Source: Flavobacteriaceae bacterium
GTDB lineage: Bacteria > Bacteroidota > Bacteroidia > Flavobacteriales > Flavobacteriaceae
Direction of reading: 5' to 3'
Length of the DNA stretch: 64,000 nucleotides
NCBI GenBank assembly: GCA_016649715.1
Contig: JAENXC010000007.1
Location: 62,001-126,000 of the forward strand
A model generated the notes under the pieces. That model made no database searches and was not told where the DNA came from. It saw nothing but the letters and a program-made list of their open reading frames with translations. This document shows, piece after piece, positions 2,683-61,783 of this stretch; the first letter of the stretch is position 1, and each line of letters begins with the position of its first letter. Made by a program: the position numbers and the translations under genes.

Positions 2683-3351
2683 ATGATGAATGCAATCCAA
2701 CCAGACCGATTTACCTTAACCAAATTATCCGATTCCAATGTCGTGCAGCGTGTATTGGAAGGAGAAAAAGAATTGTTCGAGATTTTGTTGAGAAGATATA
2801 ACCAACGTCTTTTTCGGGTAATTAGAAGTTATATCCATTCCGAAGATGACGTACAAGACATTATGCAAGACGCTTATGTGAAGGCCTATACCAAGTTGGG
2901 CCAGTTTAACAACCAGGCCTCTTTTTCCACTTGGCTTATCAGGATTGCCATCAACGAAGCGTTACAACATATACGAAAGAACAAAAGACGATTGATGAAT
3001 TACGGAAAAACGGAAAGTTTAGAAAACGTTTTTCAATTGCCAGATACAAATCAAATGAATCCAGAAAAACAAGCCATAACTACTGAAACCCGCACCTTGT
3101 TGGAAAACGCAGTAGATCATCTGCCCGAAAAATACCGTGTGGTGTTCGTGCTCCAACAGGTGGAAGGTCTAACGAATCCAGAGATTGCCGATTGCCTAAA
3201 ATTGACCGATAGCAATGTGAAGGTGCGGTTGCACCGTGCCAAAGGCCTATTGAAAGAAGAGCTCTTCAAAACCACACACGACACCTCCATCTTTGAGTTT
3301 GGAAACCATAAGTGCGATGCGATGGTGAAAAATGTTTTGGAACGAATTTAA
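2683..3351 (+). CDS. ECF-type RNA polymerase sigma-70 factor
   Basis: The 222-residue protein has sigma region 2 (about residues 33-100, with the helix HSEDDVQDIMQDAYVKAY and the motif FSTWLIRIAINEAL) and region 4 (about 140-200, with the helix-turn-helix NPEIADCLKLTDSNVKVRLHRAK). It should direct RNA polymerase to a small stress or envelope regulon. No anti-sigma gene follows it, so control may act at transcription. The start could be the first or second ATG (2683 or 2686); both are possible. It is divergent from the DoxX gene. Confidence 0.88.
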   Translation: MMNAIQPDRFTLTKLSDSNVVQRVLEGEKELFEILLRRYNQRLFRVIRSYIHSEDDVQDIMQDAYVKAYTKLGQFNNQASFSTWLIRIAINEALQHIRKNKRRLMNYGKTESLENVFQLPDTNQMNPEKQAITTETRTLLENAVDHLPEKYRVVFVLQQVEGLTNPEIADCLKLTDSNVKVRLHRAKGLLKEELFKTTHDTSIFEFGNHKCDAMVKNVLERI

Positions 3352-48208: not shown

Positions 48209-49384
48209 TTAGGATGGGTTGAGTTCAGGCATAGCCTCATCCAAAATTGTAGCATACGCCACTGGATCTTCTGTTTCCAATATTGCAAGAAGCTCAGCAC
48301 CTTTTGCGCCTGCGTTTGCATAGTTTTCGTACTTCCAGCCTTTAGTATCAGGATTTGCTCCAGTCGCTCCATGTGTTTTGCCAGCTGCGTTGATGTCAAT
48401 TTTCTCCAGCGGAAGCAGAGCATCAATAAATTTTTCGGTAGCTTCAAAGCTGGCTTCTGCCATTGCCTGAAGGTTGGCGCGTTGGTCCCCAGTAAATTTC
48501 TTGTCGGCTTCACCTTTATTCAGCAGTGCTGTAATTTTGGCGGCCTTTCCGTCTTTTTCCTGTTGGTCCATTTTGGCCTGAAGTTGAACAGATTGTTCCG
48601 CTTTGGCCTTGTTTTCTGCAATTTTGGCGGTAATTTCCGCCTCAGTTGCTGTGGATGGCAATCCTAAGCTGGCTGCCAATACTTCTTTGTTCATATTCTC
48701 GGTTTTTGGATTTGTTTCGGGTTCAATAATTGGATCTGGAATGTTAGGATCTCCAGCGGCAACCAATTTCATTCTTGCCTCAGTATCTATTGCCAGTGTA
48801 TCATTTTCTATAGTGGCAACCATTCCTTTCTTTTTTGCTTCTTTGGCGTCCATCCAGTAGTCATTCACCCAAAGTTTTTCAACTTCGTCTTCAGTCATTC
48901 CAAAGGACTCAGCATATTCAGCTTTATATTCAGCTGTTATATTTTCAAGAAGTTTTAATTGTGCTTTAATTTTGTCCTCATTGCCTCCAATGTACATCGA
49001 TGGCTTGTGGATCATAAAACGACTGTTTTTCTTACAGCTGGCCTTTTTGCGATAATGCACTAATATTTTAGTACCTGCAGAAGCGGCTAATGCACCAACT
49101 TTTAAACTCACGTTTTCTTTTTGAAAGGCATCGTCCAGAATGTTGCACATTTCATTTGCCTGGAAGCAATCGCCGCCTTCGGTGTTTAGATACACTTCAG
49201 CGGTCGTTGCGCCTTCGTCTTTTAAGGTTTTTACATTGTTCTTTAAATTAGTGGTTGAAGCATCGCCCCATCTTCCTATGTAGCCATCAATAGATAAATA
49301 GGCCACCTTGTTTTTCACCTCAGCAGTGATAAGCAAAGCGCCGTTGTCTTTTGTGGCCGGTAATTGAAGTAAGGTCTTTCGCAT
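48209..49384 (-). CDS. ClpP-like head maturation protease fused to scaffold (Mu I/Z type)
   Basis: The 391-residue protein has a ClpP-fold N-terminal domain (residues about 25-200): LNTEGGDCFQANEMC, the Ser in ALAASAGT and the His in FMIHKPSMY. The C-terminal part (from about 231) is helical and Lys/Glu/Ala-rich, as in scaffolds. An internal ATG at 48694 (MNKEVLAASLGLPSTATEAE) could give the scaffold alone, as with Mu gene Z inside gene I. It is the first gene of the leftward late block. Confidence 0.83.
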   Translation of the reverse strand: MRKTLLQLPATKDNGALLITAEVKNKVAYLSIDGYIGRWGDASTTNLKNNVKTLKDEGATTAEVYLNTEGGDCFQANEMCNILDDAFQKENVSLKVGALAASAGTKILVHYRKKASCKKNSRFMIHKPSMYIGGNEDKIKAQLKLLENITAEYKAEYAESFGMTEDEVEKLWVNDYWMDAKEAKKKGMVATIENDTLAIDTEARMKLVAAGDPNIPDPIIEPETNPKTENMNKEVLAASLGLPSTATEAEITAKIAENKAKAEQSVQLQAKMDQQEKDGKAAKITALLNKGEADKKFTGDQRANLQAMAEASFEATEKFIDALLPLEKIDINAAGKTHGATGANPDTKGWKYENYANAGAKGAELLAILETEDPVAYATILDEAMPELNPS

Positions 49385-49407: not shown

Positions 49408-49440
49408 CAAAAATGCGATGCCTTTGTAAGTCTGTAAAAA
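49408..49440 (-). promoter_or_regulatory. Leftward late promoter motif (TTTTTA-N17-CGCATTTTTG)
   Basis: On the minus strand, TTTTTA (49435..49440) and CGCATTTTTG (49408..49417) are 17 nt apart. The rightward copy at 49508..49540 has the same parts and spacing. TTTG is shared with the normal -7 box but TA is replaced by CA, so an activator is probably needed. Confidence 0.6.
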
Positions 49441-49454
49441 AAGCGTTGTAAAAT

Positions 49455-49493
49455 ACCAGAGATTTACTGGTATTTTACCAGTAAATCTCTGGT
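49455..49493. promoter_or_regulatory. Nested palindromic operator between divergent late operons
   Basis: Perfect 18-bp arms (49455..49472 and 49476..49493) with a 3-nt centre. Each arm region is itself a palindrome ACCAG-N7-CTGGT (49455..49471 and 49477..49493), the two being 22 bp apart, two helix turns. Flanking promoter motifs begin 14 bp away on both sides. Confidence 0.75.
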
Positions 49494-49507
49494 GAAATAA
49501 ACAGTAG

Positions 49508-49540
49508 TTTTTAGCAGCCCAACCCATTGCCGCAAATTTG
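49508..49540 (+). promoter_or_regulatory. Rightward late promoter motif (TTTTTA-N17-CGCAAATTTG)
   Basis: TTTTTA (49508..49513), 17 nt, CGCAAATTTG (49531..49540), ending 4 nt before the start codon of the small terminase gene, so its mRNA may be leaderless. Confidence 0.6.
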
Positions 49541-49544
49541 TGCT

Positions 49545-50036
49545 ATGGCAAAAGACAAAGAAAGGGCGACGGCAAAAGCACTGTTTCTGCAAGGTAGAAA
49601 TCAAAAAGAAATTGCCGGCATTGTTGGGGTTCAGGAAAAGACCATAAACCAATGGTGCAAAAATCACGGCTGGAAACAGCAGCTTGATGCTAAACTGAAC
49701 GGCAACAGGGAAAGGGTGGACAATCTTAAAAAGCTGATCGGCGTCTTCACCGATGAACGCCTGGAGCTGGTGGACAAAATTAAAGCTGCCGAAAAAGCAG
49801 CCGACAAGGAGCTGCTTGCAGAATACACCAAACGGGCCAACCAAATAGCCAATGAAGTGGCTATGTATTCCAAGGCTTTGGAAAACTTAGACCAGGACAA
49901 AAAAATACCACTTACCGTCTATCTGGACGTGATGGATCAAATTTTCCACGACCTACAAAAACGCTATCCAAAACTTTACATGCAACTGGTGGACTTTCAG
50001 GACGAGCACATCAATGGCGTATCACTAAAATATTAA
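49545..50036 (+). CDS. Phage small terminase-like protein (DUF1804 / Mu gp27 type)
   Basis: The 163-residue protein has an N-terminal helix-turn-helix (LFLQGRNQKEIAGIVGVQEKTINQWCKNHGW) and long helices, as in DUF1804 and small terminase subunits that choose phage DNA for packaging. The start at 49545 is the ATG next to the HTH; the frame upstream is part of the control region. It is the first gene of the rightward late block. Confidence 0.78.
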   Translation: MAKDKERATAKALFLQGRNQKEIAGIVGVQEKTINQWCKNHGWKQQLDAKLNGNRERVDNLKKLIGVFTDERLELVDKIKAAEKAADKELLAEYTKRANQIANEVAMYSKALENLDQDKKIPLTVYLDVMDQIFHDLQKRYPKLYMQLVDFQDEHINGVSLKY

Positions 50037-50038
50037 AA

Positions 50039-50380
50039 ATGAACAACCGCATCAAATACTGGATTAATTCAATTTACCTCTTTCTACGGCGTTTTTTAAC
50101 GCTGTTTCTGCTGGTACCCGGCGGTGTGCTTTTACACTGCTGGATATCGATCTTTAAAAACATTCCAGCTGCACAGGTTTACATGAATTTGGGCAGCCAG
50201 TTTATGCGTACGGGCGTGGGTGTAAAAATTGGTGATCAGATACATAGACCGCGTAAAGATTTGCAAGGCATTCGTTCTATGTGGGTGAAAAACCTGTATT
50301 ACAACTTCGGTTTGAATAAAGTAACTGCCAGTTACACGGACAAACCTCATACAATCAAAAAGAATGAAGGCCGAAGATAA
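50039..50380 (+). CDS. Small phage membrane protein of unknown function
   Basis: The 113-residue protein has one hydrophobic region (YLFLRRFLTLFLLVPGGVLLHCWISIF) and a basic C-terminus. It overlaps the terminase large subunit gene by 17 bp. I do not recognise it. Confidence 0.55.
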   Translation: MNNRIKYWINSIYLFLRRFLTLFLLVPGGVLLHCWISIFKNIPAAQVYMNLGSQFMRTGVGVKIGDQIHRPRKDLQGIRSMWVKNLYYNFGLNKVTASYTDKPHTIKKNEGRR

Positions 50381-51875
50381 AAAAGCGTTATTAGCATACC
50401 GCAAAAAACTTGAATTTGCCCGGAGCTCTGGACCCGTAAACGTCTATGAAACCGCCAGCGAAAAGGAGGCTCGGATTGAACGGGCAAAAAAGGATCCTAA
50501 GTTTTGTGCGGAGTATTATTTTCCACATTTCGCCACTTCGGAAGCGGCAGACTTTCACATAAAAGGTGCAAAGGCAACCATTAAAAACCGTTTAGACAGA
50601 TCTTTCGATCAGTGGGGCCGTGGACTTGCAAAATCGGTGTGGGCAGATCTGATCACTCCCTTTTGGATGTGGATGAATGGCGAATGTAATTATATGGCAA
50701 TCGTTACCACCAGTAAAGACCGCGCAGGTGAATTATTGGAAGATATCCGGGCAGAGTTTGAAGGGAATCCGCGCATCATTGCAGATTTTGGAGAGCAGGC
50801 TGGAACTGGGCAATGGGAAAAAAGTTTTTTCATTACCAAAAGCGGGTTTATTGGCAAAGCCCTGGGCGCAGGCCAAAACGTGCGTGGTCTTCGTGTAAAG
50901 CACCAACGCCCGGACTATATCGTGATTGATGATTTGGAAACCAAAGAACTTATTGCAAACCCAAAACGCCAGTTAAAACTCGCAAAATGGGTGGAGCGCG
51001 ACCTTATTCCAACAATGGATGGTCCTATTCGTCGCTTCAAATATGCAAACAACCGCTTTGCGCCCACAATGATCCAAACCATACTGCAGGAACGCCACCC
51101 AAACTGGCGTGTGTTTGAAATAAACGCCTACGATCCTGTAACCTATAAACCTACGTGGTTGCAAAAGTATGACGATGAATACTACAAAGTAGTTGAGGAA
51201 GACATAGGTATTCTGGCTGCAAAAGCAGAATACAACAACGAGCCACATATTGAAGGGACCATCTTTAAACAGGAAGACATCCAGTGGGGAAAACTTCCTG
51301 CTTTAAATCACTTTAAAGTCATCACAGGCTTTTGGGATGTGGCTTATGCCGGCACGCAAACTGCCGATTTTAACGCCGTGCGGGTTTGGGGGTTAAAGGA
51401 TAAGGATTTTTGGTACATAGACAGCTTTGTGAGGCAATCAAAAATTAGAGCTGCGTTGGATTGGATGGCACAATTTCAAATGTCGTTGCCGGACACGGTG
51501 ATTGTGCATTGGAAGTTTGAAGCGCAGTTTTGGAATGACGAAATAGAAAGGACCATTCGCGAAGTGGAAGCTGCTTACAGGATACATTTAAACCTGGTGA
51601 AAGTGGACACGCCAAAAACTCACAAATACGATCGTATTTTGAGCCTGCAGCCTTATTATCAAAATGGCCGCTGCTATTACAACGAACTAAAGAAGAGCCA
51701 CCACAGCACGCAAGAAGGCATTGCTCAGCTCTTGGGTATTGAACCAGGTTACAAAACCCACGACGATGCGCCCGATGCGGACCAACAAGCTATAAAATGG
51801 TTAAGTAGTTGGCTATATACAGGAAGCCGTGGAACAACCTTAACCGGAAATATTAAACGCGAAACACACTTTTAA
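50364..51875 (+). CDS. Phage terminase large subunit (Mu gp28 type)
   Basis: The 503-residue protein has an ATPase half with a degenerate Walker A region (FDQWGRGLAKSVWADLIT), Walker B DYIVIDDLETKE, and a C-terminal RNase-H-like nuclease domain (FWDVAYAGTQTADFNAVRVWG, the acidic triad ending at DDAPDADQQ). It cuts and packages phage DNA into the prohead. Length is normal. Confidence 0.87.
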   Translation: MKAEDKKALLAYRKKLEFARSSGPVNVYETASEKEARIERAKKDPKFCAEYYFPHFATSEAADFHIKGAKATIKNRLDRSFDQWGRGLAKSVWADLITPFWMWMNGECNYMAIVTTSKDRAGELLEDIRAEFEGNPRIIADFGEQAGTGQWEKSFFITKSGFIGKALGAGQNVRGLRVKHQRPDYIVIDDLETKELIANPKRQLKLAKWVERDLIPTMDGPIRRFKYANNRFAPTMIQTILQERHPNWRVFEINAYDPVTYKPTWLQKYDDEYYKVVEEDIGILAAKAEYNNEPHIEGTIFKQEDIQWGKLPALNHFKVITGFWDVAYAGTQTADFNAVRVWGLKDKDFWYIDSFVRQSKIRAALDWMAQFQMSLPDTVIVHWKFEAQFWNDEIERTIREVEAAYRIHLNLVKVDTPKTHKYDRILSLQPYYQNGRCYYNELKKSHHSTQEGIAQLLGIEPGYKTHDDAPDADQQAIKWLSSWLYTGSRGTTLTGNIKRETHF

Positions 51876-52311: not shown

Positions 52312-53640
52312 ATGGGACTTAAAAGCTGGCTTCAGAACTTTTCAAAAAATGAGGTGTTGAAAGACCGCAAACTTTCTGCACAAACGCTTCGGGAAATGCC
52401 GGAAGATATTTTGCGCATCGAAATGGCTGCCAAAAAAGGAAATCGCGGAAGTGGCAAAAACATAACCGCTGGACTTACCGGTAACGCCACATTTTTCACT
52501 CCAAAAACCATTAAGGATTGGAACAATGCCGTGCAATCTGCCACAGATCCTGAACGCCCTAACTTTCAATTCCTGCAGGAGCTTTACGAAAATCTAAAGC
52601 TGGATGCACACGTTCAAAGTGTTATTGAAACCCGTGTAAAACGTGTACTGCGCTCCAAATACGATTTGATTAGCCAAGGTGGTGAAGTAAACGAAGATGC
52701 CAAGAAACTACTCAACGCGCCCTGGTTTGAAAGCTTTGTGAGCGATGTGGTGATGACCAAGTTTGAAGGCATTAAAGTATTGGAGCTTTTTGACGTGGAC
52801 GAAATTGGCGAGCTCATTCGTTGTAAAGACATTCCAAAAGGCCACTTGTTGCCATTGCGCCAAGAAATTGCAAAGGAAGCGGGTGGTGAAAATGGAACAA
52901 GCTATGTGGGCGGATTAGCAAATTATTACGTTGAAGTAGGCGAAATGGAAGACCTTGGATTGCTCAGCCAGATTGCCACTTACATACTTGCAAAGAAAAA
53001 AGCAATGGGCGCTTTCCTGGACTACCTTCACAAATACGGAGTGCCGCCCATTATCATCAATACGGCCAATTACGATAAGGAACGCCAAACAGAGCTGTTG
53101 GCTATGGGTGTGGAAATGCACAACAACCACGTGATGGTTATCCAAGGAAATGAAACCTTTACTTTGGGCGATGTCCCCACAGGTGGAAGTACAACCTTGT
53201 TTTTCGACTTCATTAAATTAATGAACTCCGAAATATCAAAAGCAGTACTGGGCCAAGATGGAACTACAGAAAATAAGGACGGTGCCGGGACTTACGGCAG
53301 CCTAAAAATAATGCAAGGTGTGGCAGACGATCGCCACGAAAGCGACAAGCTTTTTGTGCAAAATGTCATCAACAAAGAGCTGCTTCCAAGATTGCCAAAA
53401 ATCAACAGCTTTTACAGTGTTTTAACGGGACTTATCTTTGATTGGGACGAGAGCTCCGAAATGGAGCAGAAAGACTATGTAGAAAGTGCTGTGCGCTTAA
53501 CTCAGGCGGGTTATGAACTTGACCTGGACGAGCTGAGCAACCGTTCCGGTATTACCGTAAAAGGTTACCGGGCACCGTTTGGAACTGCAGCAGATCCTTC
53601 GCTTGAAGATCCTAAAAAAAAAAGCCCAGCCAAAAAGTAA
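52312..53640 (+). CDS. Portal protein (DUF935, Mu gp29 type)
   Basis: The 442-residue protein has the DUF935 core: FLQELYENLKLDAHVQSVIETRVKRVL, YDKERQTELLAMGVEMHNNHVMVIQGNETF and MNSEISKAVLGQDGTTENKDGAGTYGSLK. Twelve copies form the ring through which DNA enters the head. The gene ends in a run of ten A (53614..53623), where frame slipping into the next gene is possible. Confidence 0.85.
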   Translation: MGLKSWLQNFSKNEVLKDRKLSAQTLREMPEDILRIEMAAKKGNRGSGKNITAGLTGNATFFTPKTIKDWNNAVQSATDPERPNFQFLQELYENLKLDAHVQSVIETRVKRVLRSKYDLISQGGEVNEDAKKLLNAPWFESFVSDVVMTKFEGIKVLELFDVDEIGELIRCKDIPKGHLLPLRQEIAKEAGGENGTSYVGGLANYYVEVGEMEDLGLLSQIATYILAKKKAMGAFLDYLHKYGVPPIIINTANYDKERQTELLAMGVEMHNNHVMVIQGNETFTLGDVPTGGSTTLFFDFIKLMNSEISKAVLGQDGTTENKDGAGTYGSLKIMQGVADDRHESDKLFVQNVINKELLPRLPKINSFYSVLTGLIFDWDESSEMEQKDYVESAVRLTQAGYELDLDELSNRSGITVKGYRAPFGTAADPSLEDPKKKSPAKK

Positions 53641-55937: not shown

Positions 55938-55971
55938 AAAACCATTTTGTTGAAGCCAACAAAATGGTTTT
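55938..55971. terminator. Bidirectional terminator between convergent phage blocks
   Basis: A perfect 15-bp stem (55938..55952 and 55957..55971, loop AAGC) lies between the last late gene (+) and the XRE gene (-), with T-rich tails on both sides. Confidence 0.8.
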
Positions 55972-55972
55972 A

Positions 55973-56278
55973 CTAATTTTTAGAGAGCTTGTCGGGGCGT
56001 CTTCCAAGTTGATCCATCGCATCTTCAAACCACTTGTTGAGCTCTGCGCTCTCGTCTTGGCTTTCAAAGAAGATATTTAGCTGAAGTGCGTGGACCATTT
56101 TCAAAACTACATCAAACTTTACACAAAATTCAAGTTCAAAGAAGCGTTTGATGGTGGAACTGTGAACGCCTACCTTTTCGGCAAGCTGTGTGCGGTTCAT
56201 CCCTTGTGCGTTCATAGCTTTTTCAAGGAAAAGGGCGAACGCTTTCCAGTGTTCGCCCTGTGGGGTTTTATTACTCAT
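55973..56278 (-). CDS. XRE-family helix-turn-helix regulator
   Basis: The 101-residue protein has an HTH_3 domain: MNRTQLAEKVGVHSSTIKRFFELEFCVKFDVVLKMVHAL. It is the last gene of the leftward early/middle block, the position of the late activator C in phage Mu, so it is one candidate for the regulator of the late control region. It overlaps the previous gene by 8 bp. It could also be a repressor acting on the palindrome at 56606. Confidence 0.75.
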   Translation of the reverse strand: MSNKTPQGEHWKAFALFLEKAMNAQGMNRTQLAEKVGVHSSTIKRFFELEFCVKFDVVLKMVHALQLNIFFESQDESAELNKWFEDAMDQLGRRPDKLSKN

Positions 56279-56540: not shown

Positions 56541-56596
56541 AATAATTGTTGCCGTATTGTGCTGTTGCCGCCAGCTCTTATGATTAATTTGTTTAC

Positions 56597-56633
56597 CAAA
56601 GATAATTTTTATTTGCGTGTACGCAAATAAAAA
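56597..56633 (-). promoter_or_regulatory. Promoter and palindromic operator of the XRE unit
   Basis: On the minus strand TTG (56624..56626), 19 nt and TATCTTTG (56597..56604) fit the Bacteroidota consensus exactly. A perfect 12-bp inverted repeat (56606..56617 with 56622..56633, loop 4) covers the spacer and -33, so a bound protein would block RNA polymerase. Confidence 0.7.
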
Positions 56634-56658: not shown

Positions 56659-56862
56659 TTAAACAGATACTTTATAAAGAATACTTTCCAGCGTGGAAGG
56701 CGAAAGGTAGTGCGCGTGTGCGGCTTTGGCGATGCACCAGGTTTCACTGTAAATTTTCACTTTGCGGCCATTGAAGTTTTCTGTCTTCGCGGAAAGTTTG
56801 TGGTAGAGCGCCACGGCATCTTTGTGCTTCCGTAAGGTGTTTGGAGTTGTAGGTTGGCTCAT
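56659..56862 (-). CDS. Small phage protein of unknown function
   Basis: The 67-residue basic, helical protein (SQPTTPNTLRKHKDAVALYHKLS) has no recognised motif. It lies upstream of the XRE promoter and is transcribed in the same direction. Confidence 0.5.
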   Translation of the reverse strand: MSQPTTPNTLRKHKDAVALYHKLSAKTENFNGRKVKIYSETWCIAKAAHAHYLSPSTLESILYKVSV

Positions 56863-56941
56863 CGTGGACGTTTAAAACAAATATAACTCCAAAACCCGCG
56901 CCTGTCAACCCTTTGAGTAGTGGTGGAAGCTAACAGGTTGT

Positions 56942-56978
56942 TAACATAAAAAAAGCCACCCTTTTCAAGATGGCTTTT
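56942..56978 (-). terminator. Intrinsic terminator after the 56-residue membrane protein
   Basis: An 8-bp stem (AAAAGCCA 56951..56958 with TGGCTTTT 56971..56978) is followed on the minus strand by seven T. It is directly beside TGACTGGAATCTT (56982..56994), a word also found in the inverted repeat at 32156..32244. Confidence 0.7.
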
Positions 56979-61091: not shown

Positions 61092-61538
61092 TTACATACT
61101 TCTAAAATCATCCAACCAGCGTTTTTGGCTTATATACGTGTCCGGTTGCTGTTGGGCGATACCTCGCTGCCTTCCTAACCAATATTTATAAGGTTTTACG
61201 CTGGCAATGGCGTTTGTTTTTTCGGTGTCTGTTAGTTTGTTCCACAGACTTTCGGAACGGGTGCGCTTTACTTTGTTGCCAAACAGGTTGTAAAAAGCTT
61301 CAAAACTTAGATCTGGCATTCCCTTGGTTACGGTAAAATTGCTGATGGCATAAAAGTGTTTCAGACGTTCCACTGTATAGGGGAATTTTTGGGTGTAGAG
61401 CCAGTTGCGCTGTTTTTCATCCAATTGGGCGTCCACCAGTTCAAAGTGCGTTAAAAAGCCATCCAGATCATATTTAAAAATCATGGTGCCGGTGAAGGTG
61501 GAACCGATGACGGTGTATGTGGTTTCGAGCGCGGCCAT
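61092..61538 (-). CDS. Phage protein of unknown function
   Basis: The 148-residue protein starts MAALETTYTVIGSTF at 61538; its start codon overlaps the stop of the next upstream gene (TAATGG). It has a helical, basic C-terminus (VKRTRSESLWNKLTDTEKTNAIASVKPYKYWLGRQ), as in some phage replication-associated proteins, without clear family. Confidence 0.6.
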   Translation of the reverse strand: MAALETTYTVIGSTFTGTMIFKYDLDGFLTHFELVDAQLDEKQRNWLYTQKFPYTVERLKHFYAISNFTVTKGMPDLSFEAFYNLFGNKVKRTRSESLWNKLTDTEKTNAIASVKPYKYWLGRQRGIAQQQPDTYISQKRWLDDFRSM

Positions 61539-61783
61539 TATTTCTGAATGTTTATATAGTTGCTGTCTGGGCAGCACGCCATTGCTGGCGGATCTATGGG
61601 TTCAATATTCAAGTGGCCACAACCTGTGCAGACTTTAATATTGTCTATTCCAGCCGCCTCAATGGCTGCGCTGTTTTTTATCATTTGGTCCCAAAATTTG
61701 CGGACCTCTTTGTGTGTAAACCCTTTTGCGTAAAGTGATTTGTTTACTGCAGCAACTCTTTTAATGGTTTCGTCGAAGGTCAT
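61538..61783 (-). CDS. Small phage protein with a zinc-ribbon-like half
   Basis: The 81-residue protein has a helical first half (TIKRVAAVNKSLYAKGFTHKEVRKFW) and a second half with CTGCGHLNI ... CCPDS, a probable one-ribbon Zn site. Confidence 0.55.
   Translation of the reverse strand: MTFDETIKRVAAVNKSLYAKGFTHKEVRKFWDQMIKNSAAIEAAGIDNIKVCTGCGHLNIEPIDPPAMACCPDSNYINIQK

Follow-up and report, generated by a model that had tools for sequence, protein, structure and literature searches.

Divergent late operons and the region between them

The window, by which we mean the whole 64,000-nucleotide stretch of Flavobacteriaceae DNA analyzed here, carries prophage genes in which two late operons diverge. 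The rightward operon begins with a TerS-like small HTH protein and continues through the terminase large subunit, portal, head morphogenesis, and neck genes to about 55902, with PHROG matches phrog_38 for 50364-51872 and phrog_113 for 52312-53637. The leftward operon begins with the head maturation protease and continues with the major head protein, tail sheath, tape measure, and baseplate genes. The early block lies on the minus strand and extends from a transposase-like ORF outside the window (L004:835-2802) towards 55973. When the prophage was compared with the Winoviridae, its head-gene layout was found to match that of Peternella_1; the transposase-like ORF was recognized by eye. A further conserved early protein of about 150 aa is encoded at 61092-61577 (-) and has relatives such as L024:19759-20205. 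At least 15 of 32 phages carry its family in the stretches scanned, the window copy lying outside the scan and being matched by eye, and it is possibly another early regulator. The features of the late side are as follows.

48209..49384 (-): head maturation protease, which opens the leftward late operon
49408..49415 (-): leftward late promoter, -7 type box reading CATTTTTG on the minus strand and fitting [C/G]AnnTTTG; conserved in relatives on both sides
49435..49440 (-): -33 type T-run TTTTTA of the leftward late promoter, matching the T-run of the pooled half-logo
49445..49459 (no strand): predicted left regulator site, centre 49452, GTTGTA-AAA-TACCAG, outer half degenerate, two mismatches to CTGGTANNNTACCAG, register from the alignment of relatives
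49455..49493 (no strand): 39-bp inverted repeat, composed of the central site and the inner half of each outer site
49467..49481 (no strand): predicted central regulator site, centre 49474 on the mirror axis, CTGGTA-TTT-TACCAG, perfect
49489..49503 (no strand): predicted right regulator site, centre 49496, CTGGTG-AAA-TAAACA, inner half CTGGTG, outer half degenerate, register from the alignment
49508..49513 (+): -33 type T-run TTTTTA of the rightward late promoter, likewise in the half-logo
49533..49540 (+): rightward late promoter, -7 type box reading CAAATTTG; conserved in relatives
49545..50036 (+): TerS-like small HTH protein, ATG at 49545, phrog_4151 and phrog_1889, first gene of the rightward late operon
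55938..55971 (no strand): long hairpin in the gap where the rightward late operon and the early/middle genes converge; each strand gives terminator-like matches

The two arms of the inverted repeat (49455-49472 and 49476-49493) are 18 nt each, 100% complementary, and separated by a 3-nt spacer. With spacers of up to 10 nt allowed, 18 nt was the longest perfect arm in the window, while in 60 Markov-1 random 64-kb sequences no perfect arm exceeded 14 nt, a length that was reached; perfect arms of this length are far beyond chance. The axis of the repeat is also the midpoint between both boxes, 49474. The motif ACCAG-N7-CTGGT occurs at 49455-49471 and 49477-49493, with no other exact match in the whole 3.4-Mb genome. 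The outward motif TTTTTA-N17-CGCAnnTTTG was found in the window without mismatches only at 49440..49408 (-) and 49508..49540 (+), and with up to three mismatches showed no excess (22 observed versus 27 expected). An earlier note on this DNA had described the 39-bp repeat, its 18-bp arms, and the outward motifs, and we confirmed each of these at the same positions.

The 133-bp span and its palindromic sites in related phages

Relatives were collected by searches with the first rightward protein, which yielded 70 loci; with L007 (the window's own region), L013, L022, and L023 added, 74 loci were examined. These reduced to 54 distinct regions, and L046 and L060 were dropped for too little upstream sequence, leaving 52 with the window included. 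Every divergent TTTG/CAAA pair was counted, with no further criteria. A box-to-box span of exactly 133 bp was present in 34 of the 52 regions, and six others had a span of 132, 134, or 135 bp, so that 40 of 52 fell within 132-135 bp. The next most frequent span value was found in 8 of 52 regions, and the mean was about 1. After dereplication at 70% identity, the corresponding counts were 27 of 43 for 133 bp and 33 of 43 for 132-135 bp. The 12 regions lacking a 132-135 bp pair include L034 and the nearly identical L073 and L023, all three of which have a span of 152 bp. The position and spacing of the region, whose conservation the earlier note had anticipated, are thus widespread in related phages. 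Looking further afield contributed little: among 395 genomes of the order, the TerS alignment had three matches, the window's own genome included.

We then scanned for palindromicity with the axis set by the boxes alone. Seven near-duplicates were removed from the 34 cores having 133 bp when the half-logo was made, and again seven in a rerun in which the window was kept, leaving 27 non-redundant regions. In these, palindrome peaks were obtained at the midpoint (z 7.9), at -11 (z 8.4) and +11 (z 4.4), and at ±22 (z 5.3 each); the largest z among 300 shuffles was 4.0, and the next real peak, at -5.5, had z 3.8. The half-logo pooled from 54 half-regions showed sites of the form ACYRA-N-TYRG at the axis and at +22, with a T-run over positions +35 to +38 and, at +59 to +66, the box [C/G]AnnTTTG. 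What is conserved in the outward motif, which the earlier note had written as TTTTTA-N17-CGCAwwTTTG and which does flank the repeat on both sides in the window, is [C/G]AnnTTTG together with a T-run that lies 28-31 nt ahead of the box's final G; the CGC ahead of the box is not general in relatives.

Most of the aligned regions show three sites in a fixed register with lineage-specific letters, such as CCCATnATGGG in L033, TACCGATTCGGTA in L054, and ACTAAnTTAGT in L044. The relatives thereby fit three sites 22 bp apart, centred in the window at 49452, 49474, and 49496, rather than the two sites proposed earlier. The repeated ACCAG-N7-CTGGT, present twice as had been noted, would not be the binding unit but the symmetry between neighbouring sites. 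The proposal that several dimers sit two helix turns apart on a symmetric control region is supported by the 22-bp spacing in relatives, while the particular palindrome is not conserved, its letters being replaced in other lineages. The outer half-sites of the window are poor matches, and the right site (49489..49503) is not among the matches of CTGGTANNNTACCAG with up to three mismatches; its stretch is identical in the close relative L024, which retains the cores (A/G)TAAAATAC and the right-hand site but has largely lost the left-hand palindrome. The layout is conserved to the base pair in many related phages although the letters presumed to be read by a protein have changed.

The number of sites can also differ. 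L033 has three sites at 22-bp spacing and a span of 133 bp, and L034 has four direct repeats or sites at 21-bp spacing and a span of 152 bp, but the distance from outer site to box G is exactly 44 bp on each side of either array. That this distance is kept in both would be expected if the outer dimer must meet the polymerase. The arrays of L033 and L034 also bear on whether the inverted repeat might be a structural element, that is, a cruciform or an RNA hairpin or terminator, instead of a set of protein sites. Perfect 18-bp arms with a 3-nt loop could indeed form a hairpin, but these two phages carry short palindromes at fixed spacing, with the register conserved rather than one long hairpin. 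Furthermore, the repeat of the window is upstream of both predicted starts, so that neither promoter would transcribe it, and we regard a structural role as extremely improbable.

A search for a second operator with 13-mers at up to two mismatches gave 0 to 5 scattered matches per phage in 14 phages, a few of these matches having one mismatch (in L054 and the window). In the window, CTGGTANNNTACCAG with up to three mismatches was found 15 times versus 14.9 expected. Given scattered matches and a count at chance level, we do not claim a second operator.

A candidate regulator, its putative promoter, and the late boxes

A gene for a 67-aa protein near the end of the early/middle block is the proposed source of the late activator, and the features around it are the following.

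56659..56862 (-): 67-aa small HTH protein, the proposed late activator, on the basis of its conserved place, predicted fold, covariation, and the regulator-led search
56878..56908 (-): promoter-like stretch of the 67-aa gene, TTGACA, 17 nt, TATATTTG, with a canonical TAnnTTTG
56951..56978 (-): terminator-like hairpin upstream of the 67-aa gene, a consensus match only, which would part the gene from the preceding genes

When the ORFs in the 4.8-kb interval starting 5.8 kb after the TerS start were compared, 30 of 32 phages proved to have a member of the 67-aa family (the protein at 56662-56862 (-) in the window) in this position. A second minus-strand family in that interval, the next in frequency, was found in 15 of 32, a lower bound because it lies near the far end of the available stretches. 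Of 49 loci that extend for 7 kb or more on the regulator side, counted with duplicates, 44 encode the 67-aa family; it was absent by profile from L067, L074, L075, L076, and L093. The two non-redundant phages in which no homologue was detected by profile, L067 and L075, are also without the 133-bp pair. The homologues are 54-87 aa with start codons chosen by rule, and AlphaFold2 models of the family (pLDDT 79 and 84) consist of a helix, a hairpin, and a helix-turn-helix. With the HTH assigned from predicted structure, the gene ends the early/middle block as do those of the Mu Mor/C family. Among 397 genomes of the bacterial family, seven encode the regulator, one of them (G354) as a partial copy with a stop. 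Strong TerS matches were likewise found in seven genomes, six of which also encode the regulator; in the remaining one, G371, the contig at that place is just 3.7 kb long. Among 395 genomes of the phylum, the only match was in the window's own genome.

No convincing match of the 67-aa family was found in Pfam, PHROGs, NCBIfam, PDB, or BFVD. The lowest NCBIfam E value was 0.0013, in one member and to a lipoate ligase model; CD3324_fam was matched by 8 of 34 members with a best E of 0.003, and the best E values with Pfam (0.0063) and PHROGs (0.023) came from one member each. Fold searches with the models returned non-significant matches only, many of them to HTH proteins.

Other candidates in this part of the prophage were considered. 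A KilA-N protein was set aside since its cluster occurs in just 4 of 32 phages. The XRE protein (55973-56278), which the earlier note had named for a binding test, is an HTH_3 protein encoded just downstream of the 67-aa gene and might bind the palindromes itself; however, its sole match beyond the window among the loci searched, not all of which extend to that place, was in L029, whereas the architecture is widespread. We regard binding by the XRE protein as highly improbable, and the 67-aa HTH protein, which fits better, is likely to be the regulator.

Several minor observations concern the same genes. At 56596-56633 (-) a second hairpin is followed by TATCTTTG, ahead of a 125-aa gene and the XRE gene, and these two genes may be transcribed from a promoter other than the one serving the 67-aa gene. 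In the window's own clade (the window, upstream of 56862 (-), and L024 and L025), the promoter of the regulator is preceded by the conserved sequence TTAACAACC(T/C)GT(T/G)AACTTC or a near version of it, which may be a site for an upstream regulator. Where a detectable regulator homologue is missing, a small ORF occupies the equivalent position in L093 (16670-16933 (-)) and in L075 (16260-16577 (-)), the latter (GVTQKWVYDHVIYPRFLISISTFYNYL) looking by eye like a distant version of the regulator.

The late boxes were compared with the primary-sigma consensus reported for Bacteroidota, TAnnTTTG at -7 and TTTG near -33 (PMC7366714). In 54 late boxes chosen by TTTG pairs alone, position 1 was C in 37, G in 12, A in 4, and T in 1, and position 2 was A in 53. 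Late boxes therefore share with Bacteroidota primary-sigma promoters the TTTG ending, the A at position 2, and the T-run at -33, whereas position 1, T in the consensus, is C or G in 49 of 54; they do not match TAnnTTTG and depart from the host consensus by one base. The earlier statement that the TTTG is present but the TA of the -7 box absent holds for the T, which is lost, and not for the A, which is kept. An off-consensus box fits a promoter needing help.

Upstream of the regulator gene, the picture is the reverse at position 1. We scanned 36 upstream regions, 4 of which had no TTTG within 75 nt; in the remainder the nearest TTTG had T at position 1 in 32 of 32 and TA in 24 of 32, although 4 of the 36 also contain [C/G]AnnTTTG in the same stretch. 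After dereplication, T was at position 1 in 24 of 24, with 4 of 28 regions having no TTTG. We infer that these TTTG boxes are the promoters of the regulator gene. Its start codon often lies just 4-6 nt past the TTTG box (56862-56885 (-) in the window; 36 upstream regions), and that of TerS 4 nt past in the window. The regulator and TerS mRNAs may accordingly be leaderless or nearly so; leaderless mRNAs are reported to be uncommon in Bacteroides (PMC7366714).

The relation between operators and regulators was then examined by Mantel tests. The first included 26 phages, a set that held close relatives, because 8 of the 34 cores had no regulator in reach. Operator distance correlated with regulator distance (rho 0.456, p 0.0005) and with distance in the recognition-helix region of the regulator (rho 0.379, p 0.0005), but not with that of TerS (rho 0.047, p 0.32) or the TerS HTH (0.097, p 0.19); given TerS, the operator-regulator correlation was 0.47. 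The TerS gene adjoins the operator, and the regulator gene is 6-8 kb off. For a control stretch between site and box, the correlation was 0.272 with TerS and 0.212 with the regulator, the latter falling to 0.129 (p 0.04) given TerS. With one phage per group (n = 21), rho was 0.31 (p 0.0045) for the regulator, -0.105 for TerS, -0.164 for the terminase large subunit, and 0.229 (p 0.02) for the protease, and the regulator correlation was 0.23 (p 0.029) given the protease and 0.358 given TerS. The covariation of operator and regulator is real but moderate, and it is not entirely peculiar to the regulator, as the adjoining protease correlates too.

These correlations bear on the possibility that the array serves in packaging, as a pac site to which the product of the neighbouring terminase small subunit gene binds. 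TerS is itself an HTH protein, about 40 bp separate the right site from the start of its gene, and TerS proteins often bind close to the gene that encodes them. Yet site similarity follows neither TerS, in the full or the dereplicated set, nor its HTH. Mu and hankyphage are also described as packaging with a short host piece at the left prophage end (PMC12135933), while the array is about 17-19 kb from the transposase gene. We consider a pac site very unlikely.

Loci were also sought through the regulator alone. This search returned 40 loci, 13 of which were from contigs already used; of the 27 new viral loci, 7 were too short, leaving 20 with at least 6.9 kb on the late side. In 18 of the 20, a TTTG/CAAA pair of exactly 133 bp was present in the interval of 5.7-7.1 kb, with the next span value found in 8, and in 16 of the 20 the 133-bp pair had A at position 2 on both sides, with the next span value in 2. 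Because a strict scan and a palindrome scan had already been inspected when the interval and the loose box were chosen, the regulator-led search is predictive for the span and only loosely blind otherwise. The strict scan, with [C/G]AnnTTTG at both ends, found 133 bp in 6 of the 27 new loci and any other span value in at most 2; its yield was low because position 1 is often A in the regulator-found group. Searching for the axis by palindrome score alone proved too noisy. The 18 cores reduced to 13 at 70% identity, and the 133-bp pair of L127 looks accidental. In the 12 cores independent of the first set, palindromes were present at ±11 and 0 with z 4.9 to 5.6 (shuffle maximum 4.0), and the peaks at ±22 (z 3.3 and 2.8) were below that maximum. 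Position 1 of the second-set boxes was T in 2 of 36 and A in 11 of 36, so that the rule in this set is "not T" more than "C or G".

Proposed activation of both late operons and known precedents

The above considerations indicate that the region is probably an activator-dependent bidirectional late promoter, at which dimers of the 67-aa HTH protein on three sites spaced 22 bp apart turn on both operons together; we put the probability of this reading at roughly 0.8. It builds on the computed architecture and conservation, the regulator's conserved place, the moderate covariation, and the contrast between promoters, from which we infer binding, dimerization, activation over repression, and the transcription starts of the candidate system. 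The 67-aa protein would be made from its own canonical host-type promoter, and its dimers would bind the sites centred at 49452, 49474, and 49496 on the same helix face. On each side the outermost dimer would then sit immediately ahead of the -33 region, at a distance of 44 bp from the final G of the box. There it would assist host RNA polymerase with the Bacteroidota primary sigma in starting from a -7 box that has become the weaker [C/G]AnnTTTG in place of TAnnTTTG. The two late operons would thereby be switched on at once, with terminase, portal, and head genes rightward and protease, capsid, and tail genes leftward. The earlier idea of one regulator acting as several dimers on both late operons is retained in this reading, given the symmetric region, the off-consensus boxes, and the two-helix-turn spacing, but its two-dimer version is not.

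The same sites could instead be operators of a repressor, either the lysogeny repressor or the 67-aa protein acting negatively, that silences both late operons. Palindromic sites between divergent promoters are common for repressors, and a repressor-like gene, read by eye, is located at the far prophage end (L004:3091-3552). On the other hand, the -33 and -7 elements are all clear of the sites, with 44 bp between outer centre and box G in L033 and L034, and sites upstream of -33 at a fixed distance from a poor box are a signature of activation by contact. Repression also sits poorly with boxes that fit a promoter needing help, with operator similarity that tracks the 67-aa protein, and with the absence of the exact ACCAG-N7-CTGGT pattern from the rest of the genome. 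We view repression as unlikely.

Functional precedent for an activator-dependent divergent promoter is found in phage P2, in which PP and PO share an Ogr site midway between the divergent late starts, as proposed here, though the likeness is of layout only. The annotation of P2 (NC_001895) places the starts at 3016 (P operon, -) and 3127 (O operon, +) and the activator site at 3057-3087. Terminase and portal are on one side and scaffold and capsid on the other in P2, so the head genes are split nearly as here. In phage Smp131, PP' and PO' are likewise reported on the same 18 bp (PMC3931495). The earlier note had stated that Mu has no such arrangement, its late promoters pointing one way, which is fair by the Mu record; P2 nevertheless offers a divergent precedent with a shared site. 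The proteins and sites differ, in that Ogr is described as a zinc-finger protein with CX2CX22CX4C (PMC3931495), while the 67-aa protein has a single cysteine and a predicted helix-hairpin-HTH fold and lacks the zinc-finger motif. P2 sites are of the TGT-N12-ACA type, as opposed to an array of three or four sites spaced by 21-22 bp, with Bacteroidota-type boxes at a conserved 133-bp span, here. The logic is therefore known, and the regulator family is new to the libraries searched. The divergent head-gene layout common to P2 may be ancient or convergent, and its occurrence there with an unrelated activator suggests a recurrent way to keep head genes in step.

Mu Mor and C resemble the candidate, as proposed here, in being small activators from the end of the early/middle block of a transposable phage, with a dimer acting at a dyad just upstream of a poor promoter. 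The Mor dyad is reported to be centred at -43.5 (PMC4287176), and the C site to lie upstream of -35 (PMC4461284). By the usual placing of -7, the outer site of the present array would be centred near -48, which would be comparable. As a Mor/C homologue the 67-aa protein was rejected, with no detectable homology to the single Mu Mor and C sequences by hhalign (E 0.22 and 0.16, probabilities below 1%), and the Mor family was absent from its Pfam matches at E up to 1. Mor (129 aa) and C (140 aa) are about twice its size, and the late genes that come after C in the Mu record run in its own direction, in contrast to the divergent operons here.

Winogradskyella phage Peternella_1 of the Winoviridae (L052) has the same divergent layout and the same kind of array with operator letters that differ from those of the window. 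Its homologue of the regulator, Peternella1_28, is annotated as a hypothetical protein, and the word "promoter" is absent from the main text of the description of Peternella_1 (PMC8776804). In the limited literature searched, and in those parts of it that were available, no late-gene activator or bidirectional switch of this kind is described for Bacteroidota transposable phages.

A fuller version of the proposal is that an activator of 60-70 aa, from a new family, assembles as three or four dimers into a single symmetric complex, by which two RNA polymerases are loaded back to back onto the off-consensus boxes. The length of the array would be free and the 44-bp distance from outer site to box fixed, with regulator and operator letters drifting together. 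We put this forward tentatively, at somewhat below even odds, as a bidirectional late promoter of a new class, belonging to the transposable phages of Bacteroidota. The analysis names a probable late-gene activator with a defined target for a group of these phages, and it points to the -7 box base given up in Bacteroidota promoters that probably need an activator. The fixed geometry and changing letters make the co-evolution of regulator and operator directly testable. Such pairs could supply small activator-promoter parts for Bacteroidota and, if the proposal is true, would be a natural set of matched, possibly orthogonal ones.
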